From positions 1 through 29,512 of IMG/VR virus record IMGVR_UViG_3300028800_002381: DNA of 29,512 nucleotides; one strand, written 5' to 3'. Both the position numbers and the translations under genes were made by a program. Shown here in pieces: positions 492 to 23,436 of the stretch (its first letter is position 1; every line of letters begins with the position of its first letter). The notes below the pieces were generated by a model. It was given only the letters and a program-made list of their open reading frames with translations. It searched no databases and was not told the DNA's origin. This DNA is from a virus.

Positions 492-530
492 ACGGCTCGT
501 CAATCGAAAGGTTGACGGGCCGTTTTATTT
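492..530 (+). terminator. Rho-independent terminator
   Basis: A 12-bp stem (492-503 with 512-523, one G-U pair) has an 8-base loop and is followed by TTTTATTT. It ends the transcript carrying the two small genes and the RNA at 347-482. Its 3' arm contains the TTGACG that serves as the -35 element for the next gene. Confidence 0.85.
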
Positions 531-541
531 TGTGATATAAT
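512..541 (+). promoter_or_regulatory. Promoter of the tRNA-like gene, overlapping a terminator
   Basis: TTGACG (512-517), an 18-nt spacer and TATAAT (536-541) preceded by TGA (extended -10). The -10 box ends 7 nt before the first base of the tRNA-like gene (548). The -35 element is the 3' arm of the upstream terminator stem, so one sequence both ends one transcript and starts the next. Confidence 0.7.
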
Positions 542-547
542 TATAGT

Positions 548-617
548 GGGCCGTGATCCCTGGATGGGTGTACGTACTAAAATATAAATTGGGGTTCGAC
601 TCCCCCACGGTCCACCA
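548..617 (+). tRNA. Degenerate tRNA or tRNA-like RNA without an anticodon stem
   Basis: These 70 bases begin GGGCCGT and end ACGGTCC-A-CCA, giving a 7-bp acceptor stem with one G-U pair and an encoded CCA. A T arm follows the tRNA pattern (4 G-C pairs, loop TTCGACT), and a short D-like hairpin (CCC, loop TGGAT, GGG) contains the GG dinucleotide. The 21 bases between the D-like and T arms (569-589) cannot form a normal five-pair anticodon stem, so no anticodon can be read. It has its own promoter, and the CCA is followed by TTTT. It is either a decayed tRNA or an RNA that mimics the top half of tRNA. Confidence 0.55.
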
Positions 618-622
618 TTTTC

Positions 623-650
623 TTGACTTCGTTTGAATCAGTGATATAGT
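623..650 (+). promoter_or_regulatory. Promoter of the tmRNA gene
   Basis: TTGACT (623-628), 16-nt spacer, TATAGT (645-650) preceded by TGA. The -10 box ends 7 nt before base 1 of the tmRNA (657). A near copy of this segment recurs at 1026-1053, and about 40 bases (from GGTCCACCATTTT through GTGATAT) are shared between the two sites with few differences. Confidence 0.75.
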
Positions 651-656
651 ATTTAT

Positions 657-1019
657 GGGCCTGACCAGGTTTCGACTGGGCTCAGACGTAATGTGATGCA
701 AGCCGAGTATGTCAATTGACCTCGTTAAACCTATTGGCAAAACACAAACGACGAAGGTAACTTCGAAGAGCGTATGGCAGCCTAAGTCCCCTCGGGGATT
801 GTTAGGTTGTCGGGGTGCTGAGAACCTGGCAACAGAATCCGACAAAGGGACAACCCTGCGTCCTTTAATTAAAGGGCCGTCGCGTTGAACGGATCAAATC
901 AACGATGGTGGAGGATGCTAGGCATCCCTAGTCGCTCCGACTTTAACAGAGAGAAGCTTGTGGTGCCATGTTATTGATGTCTTCAGGACGCGGGGGGCAG
1001 CACCCCGCCAGGTCCACCA
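657..1019 (+). ncRNA. ssrA: Phage-encoded tmRNA
   Basis: This 363-nt RNA rescues stalled ribosomes by acting first as tRNA-Ala and then as a short mRNA. The 5' end GGGCCTG pairs with CAGGTCC before the terminal ACCA. The D-loop region TTTCGACTGGG and the GCAAGCCGAG block match the bacterial tmRNA pattern. Pseudoknot 1 is visible (CGAG with CTCG; GTCAAT with ATTGGC). The tag frame runs from ACA at 744 to TAA at 783-785 and encodes TNDEGNFEERMAA, with the usual small hydrophobic C-terminus. The T-arm stem is intact, but its loop reads GGCAGCA instead of a TTCAA-type loop, which is unusual. A tmRNA is also known from cluster C mycobacteriophages. No smpB gene is visible here, so host SmpB would be needed. 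Confidence 0.93.
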
Positions 1020-1025
1020 TTTTTC

Positions 1026-1053
1026 TTGACTTTGTTTGAAACAGTGATATGAT
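1026..1053 (+). promoter_or_regulatory. Promoter duplicated from the tmRNA promoter, driving a possible leaderless gene
   Basis: TTGACT (1026-1031), 16-nt spacer, TATGAT (1048-1053) preceded by TGA. With the 7-nt spacing seen at the RNA genes, transcription would start at about 1060, only 2 nt before the ATG at 1062. Confidence 0.65.
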
Positions 1054-4135: not shown

Positions 4136-4591
4136 TTAAACTGTCTCGTCGTATTTACTGTCATACTGTCCATCCCAAGCATCTGGAGCACTAGCTGGAG
4201 CAGAACTTGGGACAAAAATTCTCTTACCTGAACCAGGCGCCCCCAATTGGAAATGAACCCAATCGGGTGTCCATCGTTTATCTTCAAAATATATACCCAA
4301 TTGTTGCATTAAATCTAAATTCTGCAATACCCAAGACCAAAGAGAGCCGTCTGTATCTGAGATATCTACCGCTAATCCAATCATATGCTTGGATGCCTTG
4401 GCGGCCCCCGGAGTCTCCGCATTAATCGAAGGCGGACGCCAACCGGAGTTTACTATCATAGGCTTAGCCCAGATGGTTCTGATTTGATTCATAGGAATCA
4501 ATAACTTATCTAAATTATCTGAGATTTCTTGAGTATAATCGGTAGGATATTGTGTATCTCTTCCCATCAAAAGTTCAGATTTGGCTAACAT
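4136..4591 (-). CDS. M15-family peptidase, endolysin
   Basis: This 151-residue protein has the zinc-peptidase signature of the M15 (D-Ala-D-Ala carboxypeptidase / L-Ala-D-Glu peptidase) group: SGWRPPSIN at about residues 49-57, SKHMIGLAVDI with His69 and Asp76, and WVHFQ with His113 completing the three zinc ligands. It would cut peptidoglycan stem peptides at lysis. There is no signal peptide, so export would need a holin. The C-terminus is a Ser/Ala/Pro-rich tail. AAAGGACA precedes the ATG. It is the only gene of its transcript, followed by the minus-strand structured RNA, and is divergent from the oxygenase gene. Confidence 0.85.
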   Translation of the reverse strand: MLAKSELLMGRDTQYPTDYTQEISDNLDKLLIPMNQIRTIWAKPMIVNSGWRPPSINAETPGAAKASKHMIGLAVDISDTDGSLWSWVLQNLDLMQQLGIYFEDKRWTPDWVHFQLGAPGSGKRIFVPSSAPASAPDAWDGQYDSKYDETV

Positions 4592-4625: not shown

Positions 4626-4631
4626 AAGATT

Positions 4632-4748
4632 GGCTGGGGATTGGCGTAAGCCAACAATGTGACCTGGAAAATGCCGTTCCTTTTGAGGGCCTAATTTGCT
4701 GTAGGTCGAGGTGAGGTCAGGGACAGTAGGGAATCGCGGGTAAATACT
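4632..4748 (+). promoter_or_regulatory. Structured 5' leader of the oxygenase gene
   Basis: The leader contains a hairpin TTGGC-GTAA-GCCAA (4641-4654) with a GNRA loop. Its 3' arm (AGCCAA, 4649-4654) could instead pair with the upstream TTGGCT at 4630-4635, so two exclusive helices are possible. TGACCT (4660-4665) also pairs with AGGTCA (4714-4719). This could be a regulatory element or merely a structured leader; no known riboswitch core is recognised. Confidence 0.35.
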
Positions 4749-10471: not shown

Positions 10472-12289
10472 TTATTCTTTCTCTTCATCTAGAGAATCTT
10501 GTACTAACATCTTTAGGATGTCCATTGAGTATGGCCTAGGCGCAAAAAAAGCTTGAGCAGCTAAAGGATTAGTTTGAGTTAACAATTGAAAGTTCTGGAG
10601 CCAGAACGGATCGCGTTTATATCTAAGAAGCGGATCTACTGCAGCGCCACAGTCTCCAAAGAATGTTCCTATTACTTCCCCTACATTTTTATACTTATCC
10701 AAAATCAATTGGTATCGTTCATTAAAAGGAACGGCGCCTCCCATGATTTTGCCAACTTGTTCTTTATCTACCTGATGCAATACTTCATCATAACTCATGA
10801 AGGTAGACATGTCTTGTTGAAGCCTGGTAGATTCTTGTTCCTTAGACTGAGCATCTAGGCCACAGAACTTAATTTCACAAATTTTAGACAGTAAAGGATC
10901 TATTAATGGAAATAAAAACTGATTAAAGAAAGTCTGAAGTTTTAAAAGAAGCGGACGAAGACCTGTATCGCGTGCTGCAGTAAGCTTGAACTCATTATTA
11001 CTTTCTGAAAGAGTTTGACTGTTTGTGCCACGGGATAAATGACTATACCCAGGAAGTTCGTCTGGAGAAATACTGAAAGCTGACATAATATTTCTCGCAA
11101 TTTGATCATACATGAATTGAAACGCATCGTCGTGTAGTCCTTCCCCGCTGAATGGTAGCCAGTCAACACTATCATCTTTACCCATACCGAAGATAGGGGT
11201 TCTGAAGCTATTTGCTACGTTATTGACAGAAGCATTGAACTGTAGTTTAATACCGTTAAGAACTGCTTCGTCAACTTCATCAGATTTAATAACTAACATG
11301 CCGCGAGTGGCACGGCCGTTCTGGAAATAAAGTTTTTTGTATGCATCTATGGAAATGTGGGTGGTTACAGAACTAATAACAGTATCTAGGGGTGATACTG
11401 GATATCCGTTCATTTCTATATCAGTGCAAGGGAACATATTGTAAACTATCATTTCCCTATGCGTGAACGCCTGTCTAGGTGTGCCATCAATAACTTGGAG
11501 CCAAGCATACTGATCTTCTTTCAGCTTCTGCATGTCGATCTTTGGCTTTTCCCCAGTAATACTTTCTAGCATGCGCATAGCAGTTTCACGCAGGTTATTG
11601 CCTACATACTCGCCCTTACGGACGCAACGATACATGGTAGCGACATCGATTGGACGAAAACGATGGAACGGGAAATTACCATCTTCATCTGGTTCAGTAT
11701 CTCTTTCGTAAACTATTTCAGTTCCAAATCGACCGAAATTCATCCCGTTTTGCATTTGGACGTCAAGATATTGAGAAAGAGTGAGCTGATCTTGGGACTC
11801 AAGCCCTGCAGTGTGTCCACAATTCAAAAATAATTGTTCGGTTTTTTTAACACGTTCCATTACTTTTTGATATTGTTCAGGGGTAAGAATTTCATAAAAT
11901 TCTTTTTTAATTGCTACTTCAAATCCAGTATCAAATCTGTCTTTTCTTTGATGTCCAAACAGACTGAACATACTGCCGCGAGCACGCAAAATGGCGGCGA
12001 CCAAATGATCTTGCAATCGAATTTGCTTAAGAACTTCGTCTGGCAACAGTCTTCGTTTAGATTTATATAGGCCAAGATAATTATCTGTAGGTGCAGGATT
12101 TTCTGTGAATGCTAAACGAGGAGCCTTCTTGTTTGCGCTTCCAGTAGCTTGTTGTAATGCGTACATCAGTGGAGATTGTACGTTCACACTAGCACCATAT
12201 GGAATGGGCGCGGATTTCTCCAAATCTTCTCCTGGAGCTGCGCCCATGGTGAATATAGGAGACTGGGGTGGTTTAGGAGTATCGTTCAT
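10472..12289 (-). CDS. Portal protein
   Basis: The 605-residue protein has the length and layout of tailed-phage portals that form the dodecameric DNA channel at one head vertex. It shows the early substrate-like segment LLPDEVLKQIRLQDHLVAAI, a central beta region (GRFGTEIVYERD..., then FHRFRPIDVATMYR), and the characteristic helix block AFQFMYDQIARNIMSAFSIS followed by PDELPGYSHLSRGT. It lies downstream of TerL and a structural gene and upstream of the gpF-like protein, as expected. AAGGAT lies close to the ATG. An extended -10 box directly upstream places a transcription start about 3 nt before it. Confidence 0.85.
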   Translation of the reverse strand: MNDTPKPPQSPIFTMGAAPGEDLEKSAPIPYGASVNVQSPLMYALQQATGSANKKAPRLAFTENPAPTDNYLGLYKSKRRLLPDEVLKQIRLQDHLVAAILRARGSMFSLFGHQRKDRFDTGFEVAIKKEFYEILTPEQYQKVMERVKKTEQLFLNCGHTAGLESQDQLTLSQYLDVQMQNGMNFGRFGTEIVYERDTEPDEDGNFPFHRFRPIDVATMYRCVRKGEYVGNNLRETAMRMLESITGEKPKIDMQKLKEDQYAWLQVIDGTPRQAFTHREMIVYNMFPCTDIEMNGYPVSPLDTVISSVTTHISIDAYKKLYFQNGRATRGMLVIKSDEVDEAVLNGIKLQFNASVNNVANSFRTPIFGMGKDDSVDWLPFSGEGLHDDAFQFMYDQIARNIMSAFSISPDELPGYSHLSRGTNSQTLSESNNEFKLTAARDTGLRPLLLKLQTFFNQFLFPLIDPLLSKICEIKFCGLDAQSKEQESTRLQQDMSTFMSYDEVLHQVDKEQVGKIMGGAVPFNERYQLILDKYKNVGEVIGTFFGDCGAAVDPLLRYKRDPFWLQNFQLLTQTNPLAAQAFFAPRPYSMDILKMLVQDSLDEEKE

Positions 12290-12298
12290 ATATCCTTA

Positions 12299-12307
12299 GT
12301 TATATCA
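12299..12307 (-). promoter_or_regulatory. Extended -10 box ahead of the portal gene
   Basis: On the minus strand TGATATAAC lies right behind the stop of the upstream gene. With the 7-nt spacing used at the RNA genes, transcription would start near 12292, 3 nt before the portal ATG (12289). TTTGGC, 16 nt upstream, is a weak -35. An SD-like AAGGAT also precedes the ATG, so promoter use is unproven. Confidence 0.4.
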
Positions 12308-13270
12308 CTATTCCACTGACGCCAAATACAATTGCGCTGTATCTTGGCTAACATTGGTTACCGTCATAGAATAAATAGTGGACATTCGAAGAAAGATACC
12401 TGGTTGTCGTACACATTGACAATTAGCTAAAGGATCGATTTCATTGCCACCCTGACCATTGATAACCATGGTAACTTTTTGATTTGATTCAAGATATACT
12501 AAAGATTGTGCGTCATAATAAAATGCAATTGCTTCTGTTAAAATAGGCCCTTCAACTGGCAAGACAGCGGTAGAAGAAAATTGTACCCACATATCGGTAA
12601 CCGCAGTAACAGTATAGGCGCCACGCGTTACGGGAGAGAAACCGCCAGTAATTAAAAGAGTATCGCCGGCCTGTACCCCTAGAGCACTAAAAATGTCTAT
12701 TTGTGAAGCAAATCCAGCACCTAGCGTATATGGACCTTCCGCAACCCCAAACGCATTTACAACACTAAAGCTGGTAGCTGTAAATGAGATAATTTGAAAT
12801 TGTCCCTGATTGGCGAGATTGAAAAGATTGCCTATTTGTACAAAATCCCCAACTTGAACGCCACCGCCCGTTAAATTGAACGGGGTACCACCGGTAGAGG
12901 TAAATGTGAGAACAGTACCGTTTAGGGTAGCTGTGACCTGCGTAGTGGCATCTGCACCGCTAGCCCGACTGGTTCTAAAGCCAGGGTTAGTTCCGCCGCT
13001 CCAGGTGAGCTGATAAGTCGTATTTTGGCCTGCAATAGGAGCCAAGGCAATCGAATATTCCGTGGTACCATCTTGTGTTAGCACTCTTGTGCCGTTGAAG
13101 AGAGTTCTAGTTTCTCCAGGGGCCAAAGAGAACTGAATGCTAGTTGGATTAGATATTGCTAAACTATTGGTTTCTCGAGTCCACCTAAAAGCAGATCTGG
13201 AAGGAGCATTGGAGGGATTTTGATCAGCATATGCGTTCAAATATATTAAGAAATTTAGTCGATCTGACAT
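12308..13270 (-). CDS. Beta-rich, glycine/threonine-rich structural protein
   Basis: The 320-residue protein is dominated by alternating Thr, Ser, Gly, Asn and hydrophobic residues, typical of beta-sandwich virion proteins such as head decoration, fibre or tail components. Two internal stretches have a similar pattern (VQVGDFVQIGNLFNLANQGQ, then VQAGDTLLITGGF), suggesting a repeated beta domain. Its N-terminus is helical (LNFLIYLNAYADQ). No enzyme motif. It is preceded by an 83-nt AT-rich gap without a clear promoter and AAGAGG before the ATG, and followed immediately by the portal gene. Confidence 0.65.
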   Translation of the reverse strand: MSDRLNFLIYLNAYADQNPSNAPSRSAFRWTRETNSLAISNPTSIQFSLAPGETRTLFNGTRVLTQDGTTEYSIALAPIAGQNTTYQLTWSGGTNPGFRTSRASGADATTQVTATLNGTVLTFTSTGGTPFNLTGGGVQVGDFVQIGNLFNLANQGQFQIISFTATSFSVVNAFGVAEGPYTLGAGFASQIDIFSALGVQAGDTLLITGGFSPVTRGAYTVTAVTDMWVQFSSTAVLPVEGPILTEAIAFYYDAQSLVYLESNQKVTMVINGQGGNEIDPLANCQCVRQPGIFLRMSTIYSMTVTNVSQDTAQLYLASVE

Positions 13271-13353
13271 CTTTGGCCTCTTTGAGATATAACTTAGTAT
13301 TAAGATTGCTTTAAAGACATATTTTTACATAAATTAATAATAAAATTAATAAG

Positions 13354-15231
13354 TTAGCTCGTGAAAAAAAATCCACCCTTCTTGTTAGTCGATATAGTAA
13401 TAGGTCCAGACCCTACCAGTTCTGCTATTTTTGCTTTCATCTGAGATTCATGTTGCGAGGCTACTGCTGCCTTAGCACGTGCCTCCGGGTCGTTGTGATC
13501 TATCTTTTGGCCGTTAATATCGATCCACGTATGCTCTGGCTTCTGAGGGCCTTTCACAGGGAAAACATTCTGTCCTATATAACGCAAGGAGTCACAAATA
13601 TCTGCTATACCACGGGCATCGTCGGGAGTTAAAGTTACATTACCTTGGCCATCCAATACGAATCTGTGTCTGGTTATCGCAGAAATTGCCTTTTTATTGC
13701 TTTCATTGGCGATTACTTTAAATTTTCTTATGCCATTGCCAGAAACTATCTTAGAACGTAATGCTTCGATGCCACCCAGAACATCTTTTGTAAATTTAGG
13801 ACATACCATTCCATTTTTTCTAAAAGATTTAATATGCGAGGGCATGGCTTGATCCGCATACCATTTATGGATTCTATACTTATCTCGAAAAGATTTAGCA
13901 ACTTCTAGTTGATCTGCGAATTCCATACCAGGAGCAGCGTAAGTCTCCATCAACCAGATCTCTCCATTTGGCAATAAAGCGGCTATACATATAACGAAAT
14001 CATGTGTATAACCAAAATCTACACCAGCATAAAATAAAACTCCTGCTTTTTTCATTTCATTAAGCAATGTAAGTTCTGTTACCGCCTGATTAGTAGGCCC
14101 CATAAAACTTTCAAATGCTTCTTTTAATGTAATTACGTTACCTTTTGTAGGACTAAATCTTGGATATACCAATCCAGTAGATCCTGGTTTCCAGCACATA
14201 AGTTGTGCTTCCGCCGAATCTGGATCGTTTTCTAGAAATGATTGAATGACAGTGGTAATTGGTTTATAAAACCCACCGGTTGCCTCTGGCGGCTTACTGG
14301 CCAATCTCATTTTGCATACCGGGAGAATGGGACATTTAATGCATCCTTCGTGTGCGTCTTTTACTAAATCCCATTTGAGCTTTTCTATTTCCGGCAGCAT
14401 AACGTGTTCTTCGGGAGACATTCTAAGAAGAGGTAAATTTTTACCGACGTAAATATCCTGTTTCGGACCGTTCGGTAAATGCCTAGTTTCTGGACATCGC
14501 TCAGTGACGTCAATAATATTCCAGTTCAAAATCTTGTAATTCATGGAGGGGGCTTGTTCAATAGCCTGTGCCATATTACCGAATGCATATTTACGAGTCG
14601 ACAGGTAAACCTTTACTCCATAAATACCTTTACTATAACTGACGATGTATTTACCTTCTTTCAGAGCAGCACCGTCAGCCAAATCCAATTCATCAAGGAA
14701 TAAAGCGTTAGCGTGCAAACTATTCATACCTTTTGGGGTACAAATGACAATTTTTATGAAAGGTCTCTTCTTTTGTGGGGTTTTGAATTTAAACAGGCGT
14801 TTATTTTGTGTGATGTTTTCCCAGCCAGCTTCTAACATAAGCGGTTCTACTGCATTTAGGAAACTATCAATGTAACCTAAGCCAACGGCAGCCTGATCTT
14901 CTGTGGCCGCAGCGTGACCAATGTCCAATTGAAAATGAAGCAATAAGAGAGTCTCTAAAATAGCAGTAGAGACAGTTTTCATGCCTTCACGGCAACTCAT
15001 CATCACATATCCGGGATTTTTATCTCCAGAATTGTCTCTGAAAGTTTTATACACTTGCCATATGGCGTCTAGGGGACTAGAGGTGCTGTCTGGATCTATT
15101 ACTTCGAGAGGAAGCTTAAGGTCGAGGAAAACAAACGCCCAATTTTTGACATCTTCGGCCGAATTTAATGGTCTAAATAGTTCTTTAGCGTATTCTATTT
15201 TTTCCGATTCGTTTAACTCGCTGAAATTCAT
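13354..15231 (-). CDS. Terminase large subunit (ATPase-nuclease packaging motor)
   Basis: The 625-residue TerL drives DNA into the head and cuts it. The ATPase domain shows a variant Walker A, SCREGMKT (79-86), Walker B LFLDELD with Asp180 and Glu181, and a coupling motif LSTRK (210-214). The nuclease domain (RNase H fold) shows AGVDFGYTHD with Asp405, WYADQ with Asp460, and ICDSLRYIG with Asp547. Between them a cysteine group (C297, C300, C306, perhaps with C246) could bind zinc or an iron-sulfur cluster, which is unusual for TerL. It overlaps the upstream small gene by 47 nt. No clear terminase small subunit is adjacent; the HTH protein at 22750-23436 is a candidate. Confidence 0.92.
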   Translation of the reverse strand: MNFSELNESEKIEYAKELFRPLNSAEDVKNWAFVFLDLKLPLEVIDPDSTSSPLDAIWQVYKTFRDNSGDKNPGYVMMSCREGMKTVSTAILETLLLLHFQLDIGHAAATEDQAAVGLGYIDSFLNAVEPLMLEAGWENITQNKRLFKFKTPQKKRPFIKIVICTPKGMNSLHANALFLDELDLADGAALKEGKYIVSYSKGIYGVKVYLSTRKYAFGNMAQAIEQAPSMNYKILNWNIIDVTERCPETRHLPNGPKQDIYVGKNLPLLRMSPEEHVMLPEIEKLKWDLVKDAHEGCIKCPILPVCKMRLASKPPEATGGFYKPITTVIQSFLENDPDSAEAQLMCWKPGSTGLVYPRFSPTKGNVITLKEAFESFMGPTNQAVTELTLLNEMKKAGVLFYAGVDFGYTHDFVICIAALLPNGEIWLMETYAAPGMEFADQLEVAKSFRDKYRIHKWYADQAMPSHIKSFRKNGMVCPKFTKDVLGGIEALRSKIVSGNGIRKFKVIANESNKKAISAITRHRFVLDGQGNVTLTPDDARGIADICDSLRYIGQNVFPVKGPQKPEHTWIDINGQKIDHNDPEARAKAAVASQHESQMKAKIAELVGSGPITISTNKKGGFFFTS

Positions 15232-15391
15232 CTAAGGTTATCCCAAAACTACACCGTTTACACTTTTTATGCGTATAACGAGTAGGTGTAAAACTAGCCC
15301 ATCTATCTTTTGCCACAAAAATATAAATTTTATATTTATGAAAACCTAAATGACAGGCAAAAAATCCAATAAACCATCTTAATAATTGCAT
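15185..15391 (-). CDS. Small Cys/His protein overlapping the TerL start
   Basis: This encodes 68 residues, very basic at the C-terminus. FFACHLGFHKYK near residues 10-21 and KKCKRCS near residues 42-48 give a possible Cys/His-CxxC metal site, similar in layout to the tiny protein at 7915-8028. Its last 47 nt overlap the TerL gene in another frame. It starts 14 nt after the chaperonin stop. No family is confirmed. Confidence 0.55.
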   Translation of the reverse strand: MQLLRWFIGFFACHLGFHKYKIYIFVAKDRWASFTPTRYTHKKCKRCSFGITLDEFQRVKRIGKNRIR

Positions 15392-15405
15392 TAATTAAGA
15401 TTGGC

Positions 15406-17178
15406 TCAGGCGCGATTGTTGGCCTCGTTAACAAACTGATTTGGATCTTCCGTAGCTCGCATGTATTCTGAATCTGCACGTGCTTCGGAGCGCTCAAAAA
15501 CATCATCTCTGGGATAACAAACGAGTCCTCCGCATGTTCCTAGAACAGAAGCAATGCTTACCGCATTACTAAGCGATTCTGCCACCGCCTTAGTGGCATC
15601 AAAAACACCAACCTCTTCTGCTTTGCCATATTTTTGATTTTCTACATCATAAACTACATCGGGAGACTCTATAAGTCTACTAATTACATTTTCAATTTCA
15701 TCGGAATTGTAACCCGCATTATCTAGTAATTTTTCAGGAAGAGCTAGTAGTGAAGGCGCCAATACATCCCTGATAGGATTTCCTTCCGAATATTCTTGCA
15801 GCAGCTTAACGGCCAAGTCAATAGCTAGCCTACATCCGCCCGGAACCGCCCCGTGAGCAATGGCCGATCTAACTGCACACACGGCGTCTTCGCATCGATC
15901 GTGAGCTTCCTTGAGTTCACCATTGGAACCACCGTATATGGTGAGCTTTGCAATGCCATTGGTAATTTTGCCCAGACGTTCATCGAGAAGAATTTTTTCT
16001 GCCTGACTTTCTGCATTCAATTTCATAGTTTTTAATTCTTCTGCTCTCACCTCAACATTCACTGGTTCTGGGTTTCCAATAACCGTAGAACGAAATCGAT
16101 ATGCTTCGAAGCTATCCATTCCACGACCCAAATCGTCTAGGGTTGCAGTATTTATCTGGTCTTTTAGGCCAAAAACTTTAGCTCCAGTAAATGCACCAAG
16201 ATCGTATAAAAAATGGGTTTCACTATTTAGAAATTGTGCCCTAAAAGTAATCATCGGAAGCACATTCATTGTATTTGGATTAGAAAAATTAAATGCTAAT
16301 TGCGTGAGAACATTTTCACTAAATCCATGGGCTACAATAACAAGATTTTTGTAATCACTGTTCCCTTCTTCAATATATTTCTTGCCCAATGCCTCCATAA
16401 GTGGCATAAATGCAATTAAGTCGTTTACATTGCCATCATAGAGGAGAAATAGCGGCTTTTCTAGATAACATCTTTGATTAGCCTGATCATTAATAAATGC
16501 AGTATGTAATTTGCCAATCGATTCCTCAAATCCAACTGGAATTGGGAAACCATCAATTCTTTCTACTTCGTAATGTTTTTTTCCACTTAGTTCACGAATA
16601 GTTACATGTGACGCGTCTCCGTACCCTATCTCTTCGAATGCCTTTATAACCGCATCCGCCATGTCAGAATCGCCGTTGGCGCTGATCTGTGCCACCATCT
16701 TCAGAATGTCTTTGTTGTCCTCATCTACCGGAATGCTTCTAGAATGGATATAGGGAAGTAATATTTGCTCAGTTACTTTAGTAATTTCTCGTGCAGCTTT
16801 TTGAGGACTATATTTTGGATTTTTTTCACAAAATTCAAATAGATTCTTTATAATATTATACGCTAGAAGTGTAGCGGTAGTAGTTCCATCACCGGCTTCG
16901 GTTGCCGTACGCTGTGCGGTATCACGTGCCGATTCGATAATGAGATGTTCATAGGGATCTCGTGCGCCTAAAGATTTGAAAATGGTCACTCCGTCTTTAG
17001 TAAGTTTGTTTGGAAGACCTGGGTAGTCAGATTCGATCAATGTCACCTTACCTCCGGGGCCAAGGGACGATCCCACAATGTCAGATACTCTTTGCATAGT
17101 GCTAAGTACCTTATTTTTAAGAAATTCTTTGTTGCATTCAAACATTTTGGATGAATCTTTAGCTTTTCGATGGGCCAC
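15406..17178 (-). CDS. GroEL-like chaperonin, divergent phage type
   Basis: The 590-residue protein (GroEL is 548) keeps the equatorial ATPase signatures: SLGPGGKVTLIE (38-49), TKDGVTI with Asp62, AGDGTTTATLL with Asp97, CEDAVCAVRSAIAHGAVPGG (matching the GroEL block with the hydrolysis Asp398), and VFDATKAVAESLSNAVSIAS near the end. The apical region is highly divergent, and the C-terminus lacks the GGM repeats. It should form a ring that folds phage proteins, perhaps capsid subunits, given its place at the head of the structural module. The start codon is GTG with AGGAG 6 nt upstream. No GroES-like gene lies in the window. Phage GroEL homologues are known from Pseudomonas phage EL. Confidence 0.93.
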   Translation of the reverse strand: MAHRKAKDSSKMFECNKEFLKNKVLSTMQRVSDIVGSSLGPGGKVTLIESDYPGLPNKLTKDGVTIFKSLGARDPYEHLIIESARDTAQRTATEAGDGTTTATLLAYNIIKNLFEFCEKNPKYSPQKAAREITKVTEQILLPYIHSRSIPVDEDNKDILKMVAQISANGDSDMADAVIKAFEEIGYGDASHVTIRELSGKKHYEVERIDGFPIPVGFEESIGKLHTAFINDQANQRCYLEKPLFLLYDGNVNDLIAFMPLMEALGKKYIEEGNSDYKNLVIVAHGFSENVLTQLAFNFSNPNTMNVLPMITFRAQFLNSETHFLYDLGAFTGAKVFGLKDQINTATLDDLGRGMDSFEAYRFRSTVIGNPEPVNVEVRAEELKTMKLNAESQAEKILLDERLGKITNGIAKLTIYGGSNGELKEAHDRCEDAVCAVRSAIAHGAVPGGCRLAIDLAVKLLQEYSEGNPIRDVLAPSLLALPEKLLDNAGYNSDEIENVISRLIESPDVVYDVENQKYGKAEEVGVFDATKAVAESLSNAVSIASVLGTCGGLVCYPRDDVFERSEARADSEYMRATEDPNQFVNEANNRA

Positions 17179-17210
17179 AATTATCTCCTAGATTGCATTT
17201 ATCTTTCCCT

Positions 17211-17220
17211 TGATATATCA
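17211..17220. promoter_or_regulatory. Palindromic extended -10 box between divergent modules
   Basis: TGATATATCA is a perfect palindrome, so both strands read TGA-TATATC. Rightward, the start would fall near 17226, overlapping the first codons of the next gene; leftward near 17205, giving a 27-nt leader with AGGAG for the chaperonin. Rightward, TTGCAT at 17193-17198 is a possible -35, 15 nt from the box. Confidence 0.5.
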
Positions 17221-17844: not shown

Positions 17845-19343
17845 AAATTACCACTATACATCCTTCCAAAGCTATAGTCGAAGCTAACTATGAAGAGTTG
17901 GCAATTCTGAAACAGAAATTAACCTATACTAATACTGCCGTTGTCCATGATACAAAGCGTCACTATAACAATTTCTGGATGCGCAGCAAAAATCCAGAGA
18001 AATGGCAAACAACCCTAGATGAACTTAAAAAACGTGCCAAGCGGACATTGGTATTCGAGGATAATGGTCAGGTTTGGATTAGGCCAGGAAACATTCCCTA
18101 TTTATCGTCACTAAATCCAATTAGTGACAATAATTTGACATATCCAGTCCCGAAAAAGGTGGCGTGGAAGAAGATGCTACCGTTCAAGCTTCATCCATAT
18201 CAGGAAGAAAGCTGGAAGCGCTTGTTAGAAATAAAACATGGAAATGTTGAACTCTGCACGGGCGCTGGTAAATCGGCGATTATATTACAGATTTGTAGAG
18301 AAACTGGATTTAGATCGGCAATTATAGCTCCCTCAAAAAGTATCTTCAATGAACTACTGGAAAAATTCGAACATCATTTTGGTAAAAACATGGTTGGTAG
18401 ATTTGGGGATGGGAAGAAAGTGCTCGGAAAGCGCTTCACCATTTGTATTAGCGATTCCATAACCAATATTAAGCCTGACACCGAAGAATGGGACTTCTTT
18501 TCTTCATTAGAATGTATGTTAGTAGATGAGTCCCACACCTTTGGAGCAGAGACCTTGGAGGACATATGCTACGGCGTTTTATCTGACATCCCCTATCGTT
18601 TCTTCTTCTCGGGCACCCAGACACGTGGAGATGGTGGAGTAACGCTGTTACAATCGATTATTGGCCAAACCGTACATACTTTAACAACGAAACAGGCCGT
18701 GGAGGGTGGCTATATCTGTCCACACGAATATCGCATCGTGTCAATTGAATCTTCCAATCCTAATTTCAATGATTCTGATGCCCTGGCTATGAAAAGGGCG
18801 CACTTTTTGAAAAATCGCAATATATGCGCTTTTGTAGCTAAATTGGCTAATGCAGAAGCGACGACCAGGCGACGACAAACTCTTGTTTTAGTTGAAGAAT
18901 TAGAACAAATTGCTATGCTTCTCCCCCTATTGAAAGTGCCGACCGCTATTGCCCACAGCGAGAAGAAACCGCAAAGGCTATTGGAGCTTGGTATACCTAA
19001 AGTGGATACTACAGAAAGCGTTGATCTGTTTAATCAAAGCAAGGCGATGATACTTATCGGTACTAGTTGTATTGCAACCGGTACCAACATATATCCCGTC
19101 CATAACTGCATTAACTGGGCCGGAGGAGCCTCAATTATCAAAACAAAACAGGGGGCCGTAGGACGCTCTGTACGTCTAGATACTCAAAATCCTTACCATA
19201 ACCTGTGCGAGCCAAAGCCCAAAGCCATTATCTGGGACTTTAATGTATTCGATATTCCGATCATGGTTCGTCACCTAGAAGAACGCTTATTGTGTTACGC
19301 TGATTCTGGTTCTGAAATTAGACAGATTAAATTGCCCAAATAA
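17841..19343 (+). CDS. SF2 helicase, UvsW-like
   Basis: The 500-residue protein (ATG at 17841, overlapping the previous stop) is a superfamily 2 helicase or translocase. LHPYQEE (117-123) resembles motif Ia/Q, Walker A is CTGAGKSA (139-146), motif II is VDESH (DESH at 229-232), motif III is FFSGT (255-259), and the second RecA domain has SCIATGTNIYPV and QGAVGRSVR with the arginine finger. The order matches T4 UvsW, which unwinds branched DNA during recombination-dependent replication. About 110 N-terminal residues form an extra domain. It heads the replication and recombination block that contains SbcCD-like and RuvC-like genes. Confidence 0.9.
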   Translation: MKITTIHPSKAIVEANYEELAILKQKLTYTNTAVVHDTKRHYNNFWMRSKNPEKWQTTLDELKKRAKRTLVFEDNGQVWIRPGNIPYLSSLNPISDNNLTYPVPKKVAWKKMLPFKLHPYQEESWKRLLEIKHGNVELCTGAGKSAIILQICRETGFRSAIIAPSKSIFNELLEKFEHHFGKNMVGRFGDGKKVLGKRFTICISDSITNIKPDTEEWDFFSSLECMLVDESHTFGAETLEDICYGVLSDIPYRFFFSGTQTRGDGGVTLLQSIIGQTVHTLTTKQAVEGGYICPHEYRIVSIESSNPNFNDSDALAMKRAHFLKNRNICAFVAKLANAEATTRRRQTLVLVEELEQIAMLLPLLKVPTAIAHSEKKPQRLLELGIPKVDTTESVDLFNQSKAMILIGTSCIATGTNIYPVHNCINWAGGASIIKTKQGAVGRSVRLDTQNPYHNLCEPKPKAIIWDFNVFDIPIMVRHLEERLLCYADSGSEIRQIKLPK

Positions 19344-19363
19344 ATCCCTATGATATACATAGG
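19332..19363 (+). promoter_or_regulatory. Promoter and palindrome ahead of the sigma-like gene
   Basis: TTGCCC (19332-19337), 16-nt spacer, TATACA (19354-19359) preceded by TGA. The predicted start (about 19366) is one base before the ATG at 19367. A perfect inverted repeat, CCTATG-ATATA-CATAGG (19347-19363), spans the -10 box and could be an operator. Confidence 0.6.
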
Positions 19364-19366
19364 AAT

Positions 19367-20401
19367 ATGGGAAAGTCCAACAAACGTTTTGAATTTGATA
19401 GTAGTTTTTATGTCCTGGCTGGCGAAATTACTAGGGCCCTAGAAGAAAATAAAAAAGACGGTACTACTCAACAAGAACAAGTTGAAGAGTTGCTGGATGC
19501 TGAGAACAAATTCAAATTACACATAATGAAATACAAAGCTTCTACTTGGGTTTACGAGGCTTTTTGGCAGAAAGTGTGTATTGAAAATAAAAATATTTTA
19601 AGTGCGCGTCCATATTTTCGTGAATCGGCCATCACATTTAGTAAAAAAATTACCCCCGCCATTAAAGCTACAGATATTGAGACGTTAAAAACATTTAATG
19701 TTAATTATCAACTTATTAAATTTATAAAAGATAACTGGAAAGGTAAATGGGATGATAAAATGGAAAAACTTTTCCAGCGCGTATTTGTAGCGCGTACAAA
19801 ACTTATTCAGAATAACATGCCCTTAGCTGTTAATCGTGCAAAACTTTTTTATAGAAAAACTCCAAAAAGTCATTTAACTCTTATAGACATGATTGGCATT
19901 TGCGCCATGGGGTTGGCTGCGGGTGTTGACAAATGGAATGGTCCCTATTCTCCTGTATTTCGCTCAGTTTGCATCGGCCGTATGGTTGGAAACCTCATAG
20001 ACTCATATTCAGAAACGATGCTTCATTTTTACCCCAGTGACAAAAGGATATTGTATAAAGCACATACTTTACGTAGTCGTAAAAGTATTGATGATGTAAA
20101 AGAGCTTACTGAAGCCGTAAAAGATGCCTTTAAAGAAGATGCTAAAGAAGGCAAGAGCATTCCTAAAAATAAGATCGACGTGGGCGAACTTAGTTCATTA
20201 ATGCAAGCAGCCAGCATTGTTAGTGCGGATGCCACAGTAAATGACGAAGGTTTTGGTGTTTATAGCTTCACAGTAGATGAGAAACAAGATATTGAACAGG
20301 AATATGTAGACAAAGAAGCTACCGACAAAATGTTGGAATTAGCAAAAAAGCTTCCCGTGTTATATAGAAAAGTATTGCGTTTAAAAGGCGTCAAGATATA
20401 A
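19367..20401 (+). CDS. Sigma-70-like factor lacking the region 4.2 helix-turn-helix
   Basis: The 344-residue protein resembles a sigma factor. Residues 149-215 fit region 2, which binds core RNA polymerase and the -10 element: NNMPLAVNRAKLFYRK, then LTLIDMIGICAMGLAAGVDKW, then FRSVCIGRMVGNLID. Region 3 probably spans about 220-300. At the C-terminus AKKLPVLYRKVLRLKG (326-341) looks like region 4.1, but the protein stops at 344, before the helix-turn-helix that reads the -35. About 110 N-terminal residues are of unknown fold. It should redirect host polymerase to phage promoters with extended -10 boxes. The predicted message is leaderless; an AGGA lies only 3 nt from the ATG, too close for a normal ribosome-binding site. 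Confidence 0.75.
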   Translation: MGKSNKRFEFDSSFYVLAGEITRALEENKKDGTTQQEQVEELLDAENKFKLHIMKYKASTWVYEAFWQKVCIENKNILSARPYFRESAITFSKKITPAIKATDIETLKTFNVNYQLIKFIKDNWKGKWDDKMEKLFQRVFVARTKLIQNNMPLAVNRAKLFYRKTPKSHLTLIDMIGICAMGLAAGVDKWNGPYSPVFRSVCIGRMVGNLIDSYSETMLHFYPSDKRILYKAHTLRSRKSIDDVKELTEAVKDAFKEDAKEGKSIPKNKIDVGELSSLMQAASIVSADATVNDEGFGVYSFTVDEKQDIEQEYVDKEATDKMLELAKKLPVLYRKVLRLKGVKI

Positions 20402-20411
20402 TGGAGATACT

Positions 20412-20774
20412 ATGAAACTTGGTGAAATTGACGACTGTTTAATCTACCTTAACGCCACTTCTTCTCTTAACAATCGATTGATTGTTGAGAAGTATGTAAA
20501 GGGCGAAATTCGTGCTAAAGAACGAAATGGTTTTGCCTTAATTGATCAGAAAACCCAAGTTAAAGGGCTAAAAATTCTAGCAGACGCTATTTTGAATAAC
20601 AATGTTTTGATTCGTAAGGGTTCCACTGCCTATATTAAGGAAGAGGCGCTTCACACTGCTGCTTGGGCACAAAAAGCCCTAGAATCTGATGCTATTTCTG
20701 TTCCTTTCCTAATTGTTGATTTGTCCCAAGTAGAGTTCATTAAACCCCATAAAGTTGGGTCGGAGAATGACTAA
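20412..20774 (+). CDS. Hypothetical 120-residue protein
   Basis: A good ribosome-binding site (GGAGAT) stands before the ATG, 10 nt after the sigma-like gene, so the two are probably co-transcribed. The sequence alternates helices and strands (LGEIDDCLIYLNATSSLNNR, later LKILADAILNNNVLIRKG) and ends in a beta segment (FLIVDLSQVEFIKP). No motif is recognised. A role beside the sigma factor (co-activator or anti-sigma) is possible from position alone. Confidence 0.65.
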   Translation: MKLGEIDDCLIYLNATSSLNNRLIVEKYVKGEIRAKERNGFALIDQKTQVKGLKILADAILNNNVLIRKGSTAYIKEEALHTAAWAQKALESDAISVPFLIVDLSQVEFIKPHKVGSEND

Positions 20775-21375
20775 AGTTTGTACCAAATGTAGTAAAGCTA
20801 AATTGTTGAATGAATTTAATAAAGATAGAACTAAATCTGATGGATTTTATTCTAGTTGCAGGCTGTGTAACTCTAATAGAAAATCATATTTTGATAATCG
20901 AAAAAAGCTTAAAGCAGAATATGATAGTAATATTTATGAAATTCAAAAGGATGAAAAGAAAATCTACTCTAAGGCCTATTATCAAAATAACAAGAAACGT
21001 GTAAATGCTTATTATGTAGAAAAAGGAAAGACTGATATCAATTTCAAGCTAAAAAGTATTCTTAGAAAAAGAATAGCAAAGTTGGTATCCGGTCATACCA
21101 AGGCTGGTTCTGCAGTATCCGATCTAGGTTGTACTGTCAGTGAATTCAAATCATATTTAGAGTCCTTATTTAAATCTGGCATGAGCTGGAGCAATTATGG
21201 GTTTGGCTCAGGCAAATGGCAGATTGATCACATAGAAGCGCTAATGTTTTTCAATTTACAAAACCGAAAAGAGTTTTTGAAGGCTGCTAATTATAAAAAT
21301 TTGCAACCCATTTGGCACGAAGAACATTTGACTAAAACCAAAAAGGATTTAAAAAAATACCATGCTAATCCTTAG
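20767..21375 (+). CDS. HNH endonuclease with N-terminal zinc ribbon
   Basis: The 202-residue protein (ATG at 20767) begins with two CxxC pairs (Cys5/Cys8 and Cys31/Cys34), a zinc-ribbon DNA-binding part, followed by a long basic helical region. The HNH nuclease motif is WQIDHIEAL (Asp154-His155), NYKNLQPIW (Asn178) and HEEH (184-187). This is the form of free-standing phage homing endonucleases. It overlaps both neighbours (8 and 14 nt), as though inserted into a compact operon between the hypothetical gene and the SbcD-like gene. Confidence 0.88.
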   Translation: MTKVCTKCSKAKLLNEFNKDRTKSDGFYSSCRLCNSNRKSYFDNRKKLKAEYDSNIYEIQKDEKKIYSKAYYQNNKKRVNAYYVEKGKTDINFKLKSILRKRIAKLVSGHTKAGSAVSDLGCTVSEFKSYLESLFKSGMSWSNYGFGSGKWQIDHIEALMFFNLQNRKEFLKAANYKNLQPIWHEEHLTKTKKDLKKYHANP

Positions 21376-22345: not shown

Positions 22346-22757
22346 AGAGCACGAAATTCGAGATATGGCTAAACTCTCTATTTTAGAGAATAAGCTCAAT
22401 GACATACAGCTTAAGAATCTCAAAATGTTCCCATTGGTGTTCTTTAATGGCGTTTCTAAAGCAGAAATCGATTATGACTTTTCAATCAGCCAGCCCAGTG
22501 TGGACTTTGAAATTGAACATGAAAAGGTCCTAGATGACAAGAAGCCAAATAAACTTAATGCGAAGTATAGTTTTGATAGACCAACCCATCAAAGCATGGT
22601 AGAATACAGATTGGTTATCGATGAAACGCAAGACAATGATTATCTTGAAAATCGTTTTTTAGCGTTAGAAACCGCAGTGCACAACTTATTTTGGAAAGAA
22701 GTACGAATAGTCGTTTTGTTTAATGGCAAAAAGGTTTACGAAACTAAAAATGGATAA
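22338..22757 (+). CDS. Hypothetical 139-residue protein with TTG start
   Basis: The frame starts at TTG (22338) with a strong AAGGAG 7 nt upstream and overlaps the SbcD-like stop by 8 nt. The product is acidic, with an N-terminal helix and a beta-rich middle (FPLVFFNGVSKAEIDYDFSI) and end (RIVVLFNGKKVYETKNG). It has no cysteines. No family is recognised. Its position in the nuclease gene cluster suggests a link to recombination or replication, but nothing in the sequence shows this. Confidence 0.65.
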   Translation: MSKEHEIRDMAKLSILENKLNDIQLKNLKMFPLVFFNGVSKAEIDYDFSISQPSVDFEIEHEKVLDDKKPNKLNAKYSFDRPTHQSMVEYRLVIDETQDNDYLENRFLALETAVHNLFWKEVRIVVLFNGKKVYETKNG

Positions 22758-23436
22758 TCTTCCAGTAGTTAAAATAAGTACTGATATGACTGCATCAGAA
22801 GTCAAGAAAGTACAGAAGTTTATAGAGGACGGATTGCCTGGTATTGCAGAAGTAACGGTAAACGATATTAATAAAATGCTCGATATGTATTTAACCGGTA
22901 GTAGTTATTCTCAAATATCAGATGCCATGCGTATCCGTAAGGTTTTCGTTCTCTATTTAGCATATAAGGCTAATTGGGAGACCATTAGAGAAGAATATAT
23001 CAATGAAATACAAGAAGGGATCAAAAATAGATTGGTTAATGTCAAATTAAGAGCACAAGAGTTTATGATTTTGGCAGGCCAGGCTTATCAGCAAAAACTT
23101 AGTGCTCATTTTTTGAAATATCTTTCTACCGGCAACATAGAAGAAATTAATACGGTAAGTGCAAAAGAAATGCTTTTAGTCATGAAAATTATTGAAATGA
23201 ATAATCATTTAGATAGCGAAGGAAAAGATAGAAATGGTAAGGTACCCCCTATAGGATTGCACCCCGGTAATACTGGTATTTTAGTTGAACGTACTGGAGA
23301 AAACTCTTTTTCTGTCACCCCCAAGGATGGCAGTGAAAATGTAGGCAGTCTTCTAAAACGTTTAGCAGATGAAAAACGTGCTAAAGAAAAAAACATACAA
23401 GAAATTAAAAAGGAGTCCCCTAATGAAGGTGAATAA
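22750..23436 (+). CDS. Helix-turn-helix protein, candidate terminase small subunit
   Basis: I choose the ATG at 22750 (228 residues); another ATG 27 nt upstream has no ribosome-binding site. Residues 38-80 hold a helix-turn-helix pattern (MLDMYLTGSSYSQISDAMRI, then KVFVLYLAYKANWE) like those in small terminase subunits and other phage DNA-binding proteins. A long helical middle and a charged tail (LLKRLADEKRAKEKN) would allow oligomerisation. No TerS candidate lies by TerL, so this is the best one in the window, but a regulator is just as possible. Confidence 0.55.
   Translation: MDNLPVVKISTDMTASEVKKVQKFIEDGLPGIAEVTVNDINKMLDMYLTGSSYSQISDAMRIRKVFVLYLAYKANWETIREEYINEIQEGIKNRLVNVKLRAQEFMILAGQAYQQKLSAHFLKYLSTGNIEEINTVSAKEMLLVMKIIEMNNHLDSEGKDRNGKVPPIGLHPGNTGILVERTGENSFSVTPKDGSENVGSLLKRLADEKRAKEKNIQEIKKESPNEGE

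Follow-up and report, generated by a model that had tools for sequence, protein, structure and literature searches.

A sigma-70-family protein that ends before region 4.2 and a probable CAATCTT late promoter signal in phages related to Myxococcus phage Mx1

The heptamer CAATCTT is described here as a probable late promoter signal in a family of phages encoding a sigma-70-family protein that stops before region 4.2, where late refers to gene function and position and not to timing. The analysis started from a 29.5-kb phage fragment of the IMG/VR collection (IMGVR_UViG_3300028800_002381, 29,512 nucleotides, the whole of which is called the window), and it is probably its shortened late sigma that reads the AATCTT promoters, with the early and middle genes using the host sigma-70. 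A previous sequence-only reading of the window had proposed a phage sigma without the 4.2 helix-turn-helix (HTH) and promoters without a -35, a proposal which seems supported in its general terms, with CAATCTT as the putative box instead of the one then advanced.

The minus strand of the window holds a structural block with the genes for the portal (10472-12289), a head protein (12308-13270), the terminase (13354-15231) and a GroEL-like protein (15406-17178), and among the genes of the plus strand we find those for a UvsW-like helicase, the sigma-like protein, homologues of SbcD and SbcC and a RuvC-like nuclease. The features relevant to the argument are collected in Table 1.

Table 1. Coordinates in the window of the sigma gene, its protein regions and the promoter boxes.
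Feature	Position	Strand	Evidence
Sigma-70-family coding sequence, 344 aa, ending before region 4.2	19367..20401	+	ORF list, profile, ends of relatives, AlphaFold, structure matches, MAFFT
Region 1.2-like segment, aa 78-86, LSARPYFRE (RpoD VRMYMRE)	19598..19624	+	MAFFT with E. coli RpoD
Sigma region 2, aa 131-215	19757..20011	+	HMMER and hhalign matches to RpoD/SigA; AlphaFold helices
Regions 3.0, 3.1 and 3.2 (finger)-like, aa 219-305	20021..20281	+	VIA alignments over model residues 9-288; MAFFT with RpoD
Region 4.1-like end, aa 309-344, without 4.2	20291..20398	+	MAFFT with RpoD; PF08281 match of relative L028
CAATCTT, 31 nt before ATG of head gene 12308-13270, ahead of portal	13302..13308	-	same place in G002, G005, G006, G007
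CAATCTT, 5 nt before ATG of ORF 15185-15391, just upstream of TerL gene	15397..15403	-	also before small ORF and TerL in G001
CAATCTT, 34 nt before M15 peptidase gene 4136-4591	4626..4632	-	
Three sigma-70-type promoters, TTGAC -35 and TGn -10	512-541, 623-650, 1026-1053 (512..1053)	+	
TGATATACA, host-type extended -10 upstream of sigma gene	19351..19359	+	conserved upstream of sigma gene in most relatives
TGATATA upstream of GroEL-like gene, host-type (class A)	17214..17220	-	conserved
TGATATA, class A, 11 nt before portal ATG	12301..12307	-	conserved before portal in G006, G007

As a single sequence, the 344-aa product gave no match in Pfam, PHROGs or the PDB. Homologues were found in viral contigs (3 loci, then 26), in one bacterial MAG contig and, within the phage collection, in Myxococcus phage Mx1, where the protein is deposited as a 'putative RNA polymerase sigma factor' (WNM70309.1, OR576727); a tblastn match, ORF210 of Perkons, did not look sigma-like on inspection and was rejected as a relative. 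In the PDB, profiles of 4 and then 19 sequences gave sigma factors as first matches, at E 2e-4 and 2e-3 respectively, and nothing else down to E about 0.1. These alignments mainly cover region 2 (RpoD versus window LIQNNMPLAVNRAKLFYRKTPKSHLTLIDMIGICAMGLAAGVDKW), and one with SigA spans region 2 through 4.1 (positions 139-338). Moreover, relatives matched PHROG 351, 'RNA polymerase sigma factor', with a best value of 1.9e-9. The AlphaFold model of the window protein (pLDDT 77, pTM 0.58, with 3.2 and the C-terminal parts less certain) places the region 2 helices at residues 130-149, 151-164, 172-189 and 197-215, and its best matches in both Foldseek and VIA were sigma chains, which made up nearly all the Foldseek matches listed (best E 4.5e-4). 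The VIA alignments, over residues about 9 to 288 and thus regions 1.2, 2 and 3, reached Z 11-13, a range attainable by chance for helical models, so that their agreement with the sequence evidence matters. The best viral structural match, A0A6J5L5T1 of an uncultured Caudovirales phage (32% identity, full length), is probably a member of the same family, its name 'SigBFG' being an automatic annotation only.

By its region 2 fold and its sequence, the window protein is confirmed as a member of the sigma-70 family. The sequence-only reading had listed region 2 and part of 4.1, of which region 2 stands and 4.1 seems to be kept; as a complete list it falls short, since the family also seems to possess regions 1.2 and 3 and the 3.2 finger, with the region 1.2-like LSARPYFRE segment nearly invariant among 19 relatives. 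The check then suggested, a structure prediction compared with the sigma-70 family, returned sigma chains as best matches, with the helices of region 2 in place. Binding of the phage sigma to the core polymerase is presumably intact.

The stop before region 4.2 is conserved and not an accident of the window sequence. As had been claimed for the window protein, the 27 complete relatives, several of them nearly identical and one of them the isolate Mx1, all stop before the HTH of 4.2, most with an end of the type K-[VIL]-[LI]-x-[LM]-[KR]-G-[VIL] followed by another two or three residues, and one with an 8-residue tail. Aligned with E. coli RpoD by MAFFT, this end coincides with the finish of region 4.1 (about G560-I561), and relative L028 matches positions 2-22 of the 54 in Sigma70_r4_2 (PF08281) and no further, the sequence scores behind the 4.1 assignment at the C-terminus being weak. 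The following gene often overlaps the sigma stop codon, and therefore 4.2 is not encoded downstream; a screening of 11 records with PF04545 and PF08281 gave no other region-4 protein over the cut-off. Without 4.2, the phage sigma should consequently be unable to read a -35 element.

The CAATCTT box came from a de novo count, in six whole relatives, of the 7- and 8-mers lying upstream of genes that had been called with a simple ORF script. Besides TTGACTT and TGATATA, this count gave AATCTTTA, present in 20 of 90 regions of G006 and 19 of 92 of G005 with about 0.5 expected, considering that sites of related genomes are not independent. Expectation maximisation over 676 upstream regions yielded 126 sites and the model A-x-R-x-A-g-C-AATCTT-W-A. 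Each genome had 16-24 PWM matches upstream of genes, versus 0.4-1.6 in order-3 Markov sequences that kept the arrangement of the genes, the PWM being trained on these same genomes and the independent tests being Mx1 and the window. In six genomes the box precedes, at corresponding positions, the genes for portal, sheath and baseplate and further operons of the head and tail. Seven of the seven genomes examined with this sigma carry CAATCTT, and the two controls (T4 and Mx8) do not. No description of such a box was found in the open-access literature.

A close view of the sites shows that the stretch between -45 and -7 with respect to CAATCTT carries hardly any information, with no -35 or activator-like motif, and no conserved sequence upstream to -45 in either the relatives or Mx1; TTGAC occurs at 15-18 bp in 2 of 89 sites. 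On the downstream side, a purine, almost never C, is found 6 nt after the AATCTT hexamer (A12 G5 C2 of 19 in Mx1), and an ATG falls exactly at this distance in 14 cases versus about 4 per offset (5 versus under 1 in Mx1). The ATG peak of the TGATATNNN class also lies 6 nt after its hexamer, and a peak at 6 nt after the -10 hexamer was observed for both promoter classes in the six relatives and Mx1 (L085-L088). Such a spacing of 6 nt to the ATG is that of a -10 hexamer followed by leaderless starts.

In Mx1, a phage of 55% GC whose homologue shows 33-34% identity over 90% together with the same shortened end and the same late box, CAATCTT is the top 7-mer in the 70-nt stretches before 29 late-region starts, chosen as late by the author from annotation and position. 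It occurs at 11 of these 29 starts versus 0.18 expected, and 2000 random draws gave at most 3. Moreover, an annotated start follows 12 of its 32 copies at a distance of 6-36 nt; these 12 all belong to the late region of the plus strand, and none lies on the coding strand of a 39.7-kb block of small ORFs in the same genome. The late starts of T4, taken as a control, gave CAATCTT in 0 of 15 and TATAAATA in 7 of 15, which indicates that the method finds the known T4 motif, and another Myxococcus phage, Mx8, gave CAATCTT in 0 of 27. In the window, CAATCTT is found upstream of genes 3 times versus 0.2 expected (Table 1). A CAATCTA with one mismatch (17189-17195, minus strand) lies directly before the Shine-Dalgarno of the GroEL gene and downstream of its TGATATA box, and a dual control of this gene by TGATATA and CAATCTA is possible.

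Sigma-70 flips out two bases of the TATAAT hexamer, -11A and -7T, with W433, W434, Q437 and T440 acting at -12 and a region 1.2 motif adjoining the -7T pocket. If the conserved purine is +1, AATCTT occupies -12 to -7, with -11A and -7T as in TATAAT and a different base at -12. In the MAFFT alignment with RpoD, W433, W434, Q437 and T440 are replaced in the phage family in either of two registers, those from 2.3 to 3.0 being uncertain, whereas RPYFRE, the region 1.2 motif beside the -7T pocket, is conserved. Such a combination of a kept motif and changed -12 residues agrees with a phage sigma that would read AATCTT, but is no proof of it.

We infer that the phage sigma reads CAATCTT, and the mechanism proposed is as follows. 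The protein would bind the host RNA polymerase core through region 2 and, keeping 1.2, 3, the 3.2 finger and 4.1 but lacking the 4.2 that makes a -35 readable, would send the polymerase to late promoters composed of one -10-type box, AATCTT, usually with C before and W-A after, transcription starting 6 nt downstream of the hexamer. Transcription of the early and middle genes, that of the sigma included, would start from host sigma-70 promoters (TTGACt / TGATATAAT), and the phage sigma, once made, would switch on the head, tail, packaging and lysis genes.

The target boxes advanced by the sequence-only reading were extended -10 boxes of the TGnTATAAT class, including that of the sigma gene itself, which would imply autoactivation. 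In this line, most relatives share a TGATATA upstream of the sigma gene, the box is also conserved ahead of TerL, portal and GroEL, and such class A sites often lack a -35. However, the boxes named, although present, are not a set beyond chance: the window has one exact TGnTATAAT (at 536) versus 1.84 expected and 48 with one mismatch versus 47.9 expected, all the positions given fit TGn-TATNNN and 536 alone is exact, and the box at 2054 consists of codons of gene 1845-2063. Those at 12304 (minus), 17214 (minus) and 19354 are conserved upstream of the orthologous portal, GroEL and sigma genes, and those at 536, 645 and 1048 have TTGAC -35 hexamers at 16-18 bp, in keeping with the earlier remark that host sigma could use some of the boxes through a fair -35. 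Across the six genomes and the window, TTGAC appears at 15-18 bp in 11 of 136 upstream TGATAT sites, with about 0.6 expected, which is the mark of host sigma-70 promoters, and the TGATATA class behaves accordingly. The box upstream of the sigma gene must then be active at a time when there is no phage sigma yet, unless this is provided by read-through or autoactivation. Furthermore, the residues with which sigma-70 reads -12T and TG are not kept, if the alignment is trusted, and CAATCTT would be left unexplained. A phage factor for the extended -10 boxes is thus very improbable. Class A TGATATA also precedes some late genes (TerL, portal, baseplate J), so the box classes give no clean early/late split.

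The late box might otherwise be read by a host alternative sigma, or by sigma-70 helped by an activator of the phage, in which case the sigma-like protein would have another role, given that protein and box are linked by their co-occurrence in one phage family and by weak residue arguments. This we consider unlikely: AT-rich phages and the 55% GC Mx1, which have the sigma in common, both retain the box and Mx8 lacks it, the box occupies the place of a -10 hexamer with no activator-like motif upstream, and the 11 records contain no other sigma region 4 protein at the cut-off. As a tentative addition to the preferred reading, in which the phage sigma itself reads AATCTT, a second phage protein could supply region 4 or an equivalent, the late holoenzyme holding upstream DNA in the manner of a split sigma, and the beta flap may be taken up by such a partner, be it a gp33-like coactivator, a clamp or a split region 4. 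A sigma that finishes with region 4.1 is unusual, there are precedents in gp33 of T4 and SigO-RsoA of Bacillus (PMC2988020, PMC8103513), and a conserved HTH protein is encoded a few genes away (22723-23436). On the other hand, the lack of any conserved stretch between -45 and the box and of any region-4 match over the PF04545/PF08281 cut-off in 11 records speaks against it, although a diverged partner is possible, and the HTH protein is perhaps the small terminase subunit, because its probable Mx1 counterpart directly precedes TerL. The gene for this HTH protein lies between the SbcD and ClpP-like genes, and the product, tried as a sigma partner, gave no informative family or PDB match.

Late transcription of T4 depends on gp55 and a single -10-like box without -35 (PMC2988020, PMC7892883). 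Like the protein described here, gp55 (with gp33 and gp45) is a phage sigma-70 relative without region 4. In both systems the late genes are preceded by one -10-type box with no -35 element, and the T4 order of genes 55, 47 and 46 resembles that of sigma, SbcD and SbcC in the window. Unlike gp55, with 185 aa comprising a region 2 homologue, a helix-loop-helix and a C-terminal clamp-binding motif (PMC7892883), the members of the window family have about 345 aa, appear to keep 1.2, 3, 3.2 and 4.1, and end in LKG[IV]K[IL] or similar, one member excepted, with no clamp-binding-like tail by eye; the late box is also different, TATAAATA there and CAATCTT here. Comparison of the sigma family with gp55 by hhalign gave no usable match, gp55 being very diverged (Sigma70_r2 E 0.086). 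In the SigO-RsoA system of Bacillus subtilis, the sigma regions are split and one subunit is without region 4 (PMC8103513), which is similar, but it is a bacterial pair and no region-4 partner was detected in the phage records. The announcement of Mx1 (PMC10720576) does not contain the words 'promoter' or 'transcription', and neither the promoter nor the missing 4.2 is described there.

It seems reasonably probable that we are dealing with a late switch unlike that of T4 gp55, in phages of about 150-177 kb including Mx1, with a sigma that lost 4.2 only, its own CAATCTT box and possibly leaderless late mRNAs. The textbook example of a sigma that does without region 4 and without a -35 is that of late transcription in T4, and CAATCTT with a 4.2-less sigma looks like a second solution to the same kind of late switch. 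A second and separately built case in the culturable Mx1, on Myxococcus xanthus, makes the requirement for region 4 directly testable, and CAATCTT provides promoter predictions for many uncultured phages. The same data also set right an earlier view that was plausible but wrong, namely that the phage factor serves the extended -10 boxes.

Other observations concern the surroundings of these genes. The TGATATACA box sits within a short inverted repeat, CCTATG-ATATA-CATAGG, and an inverted repeat with changing arms around TGATATA is located directly before the sigma ATG in the window (19344-19366) and at the same place in 13 relatives. Its arms pair with a score of 172, and exchanging them at random between relatives gives 125 +/- 10.7 (p 0.0002, with no control for relatedness). 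The Shine-Dalgarno of the sigma gene falls in the 3' arm, and the repeat may hide the ribosome site in read-through mRNA. The stretch 489-1053, with few genes, combines a strong terminator-like stem (489-526) and three sigma-70-type promoters. The TerL of relative L001 (2774-5776, minus strand) has an intein-like insert (CFSEKTQILMSDGT...HNC) that is missing from the window terminase. Directly 3' of the sigma gene there is a conserved small gene (20412-20774), GroES/gp31-like by eye, a likeness for which the profile search of the PDB gave no support; if real, its product would pair with the phage GroEL. Between this GroES-like gene and that of SbcD, the window (20755-21375) and L001 (11394-11825) carry HNH-like ORFs, absent in L002, which are likely homing endonucleases at the same spot.
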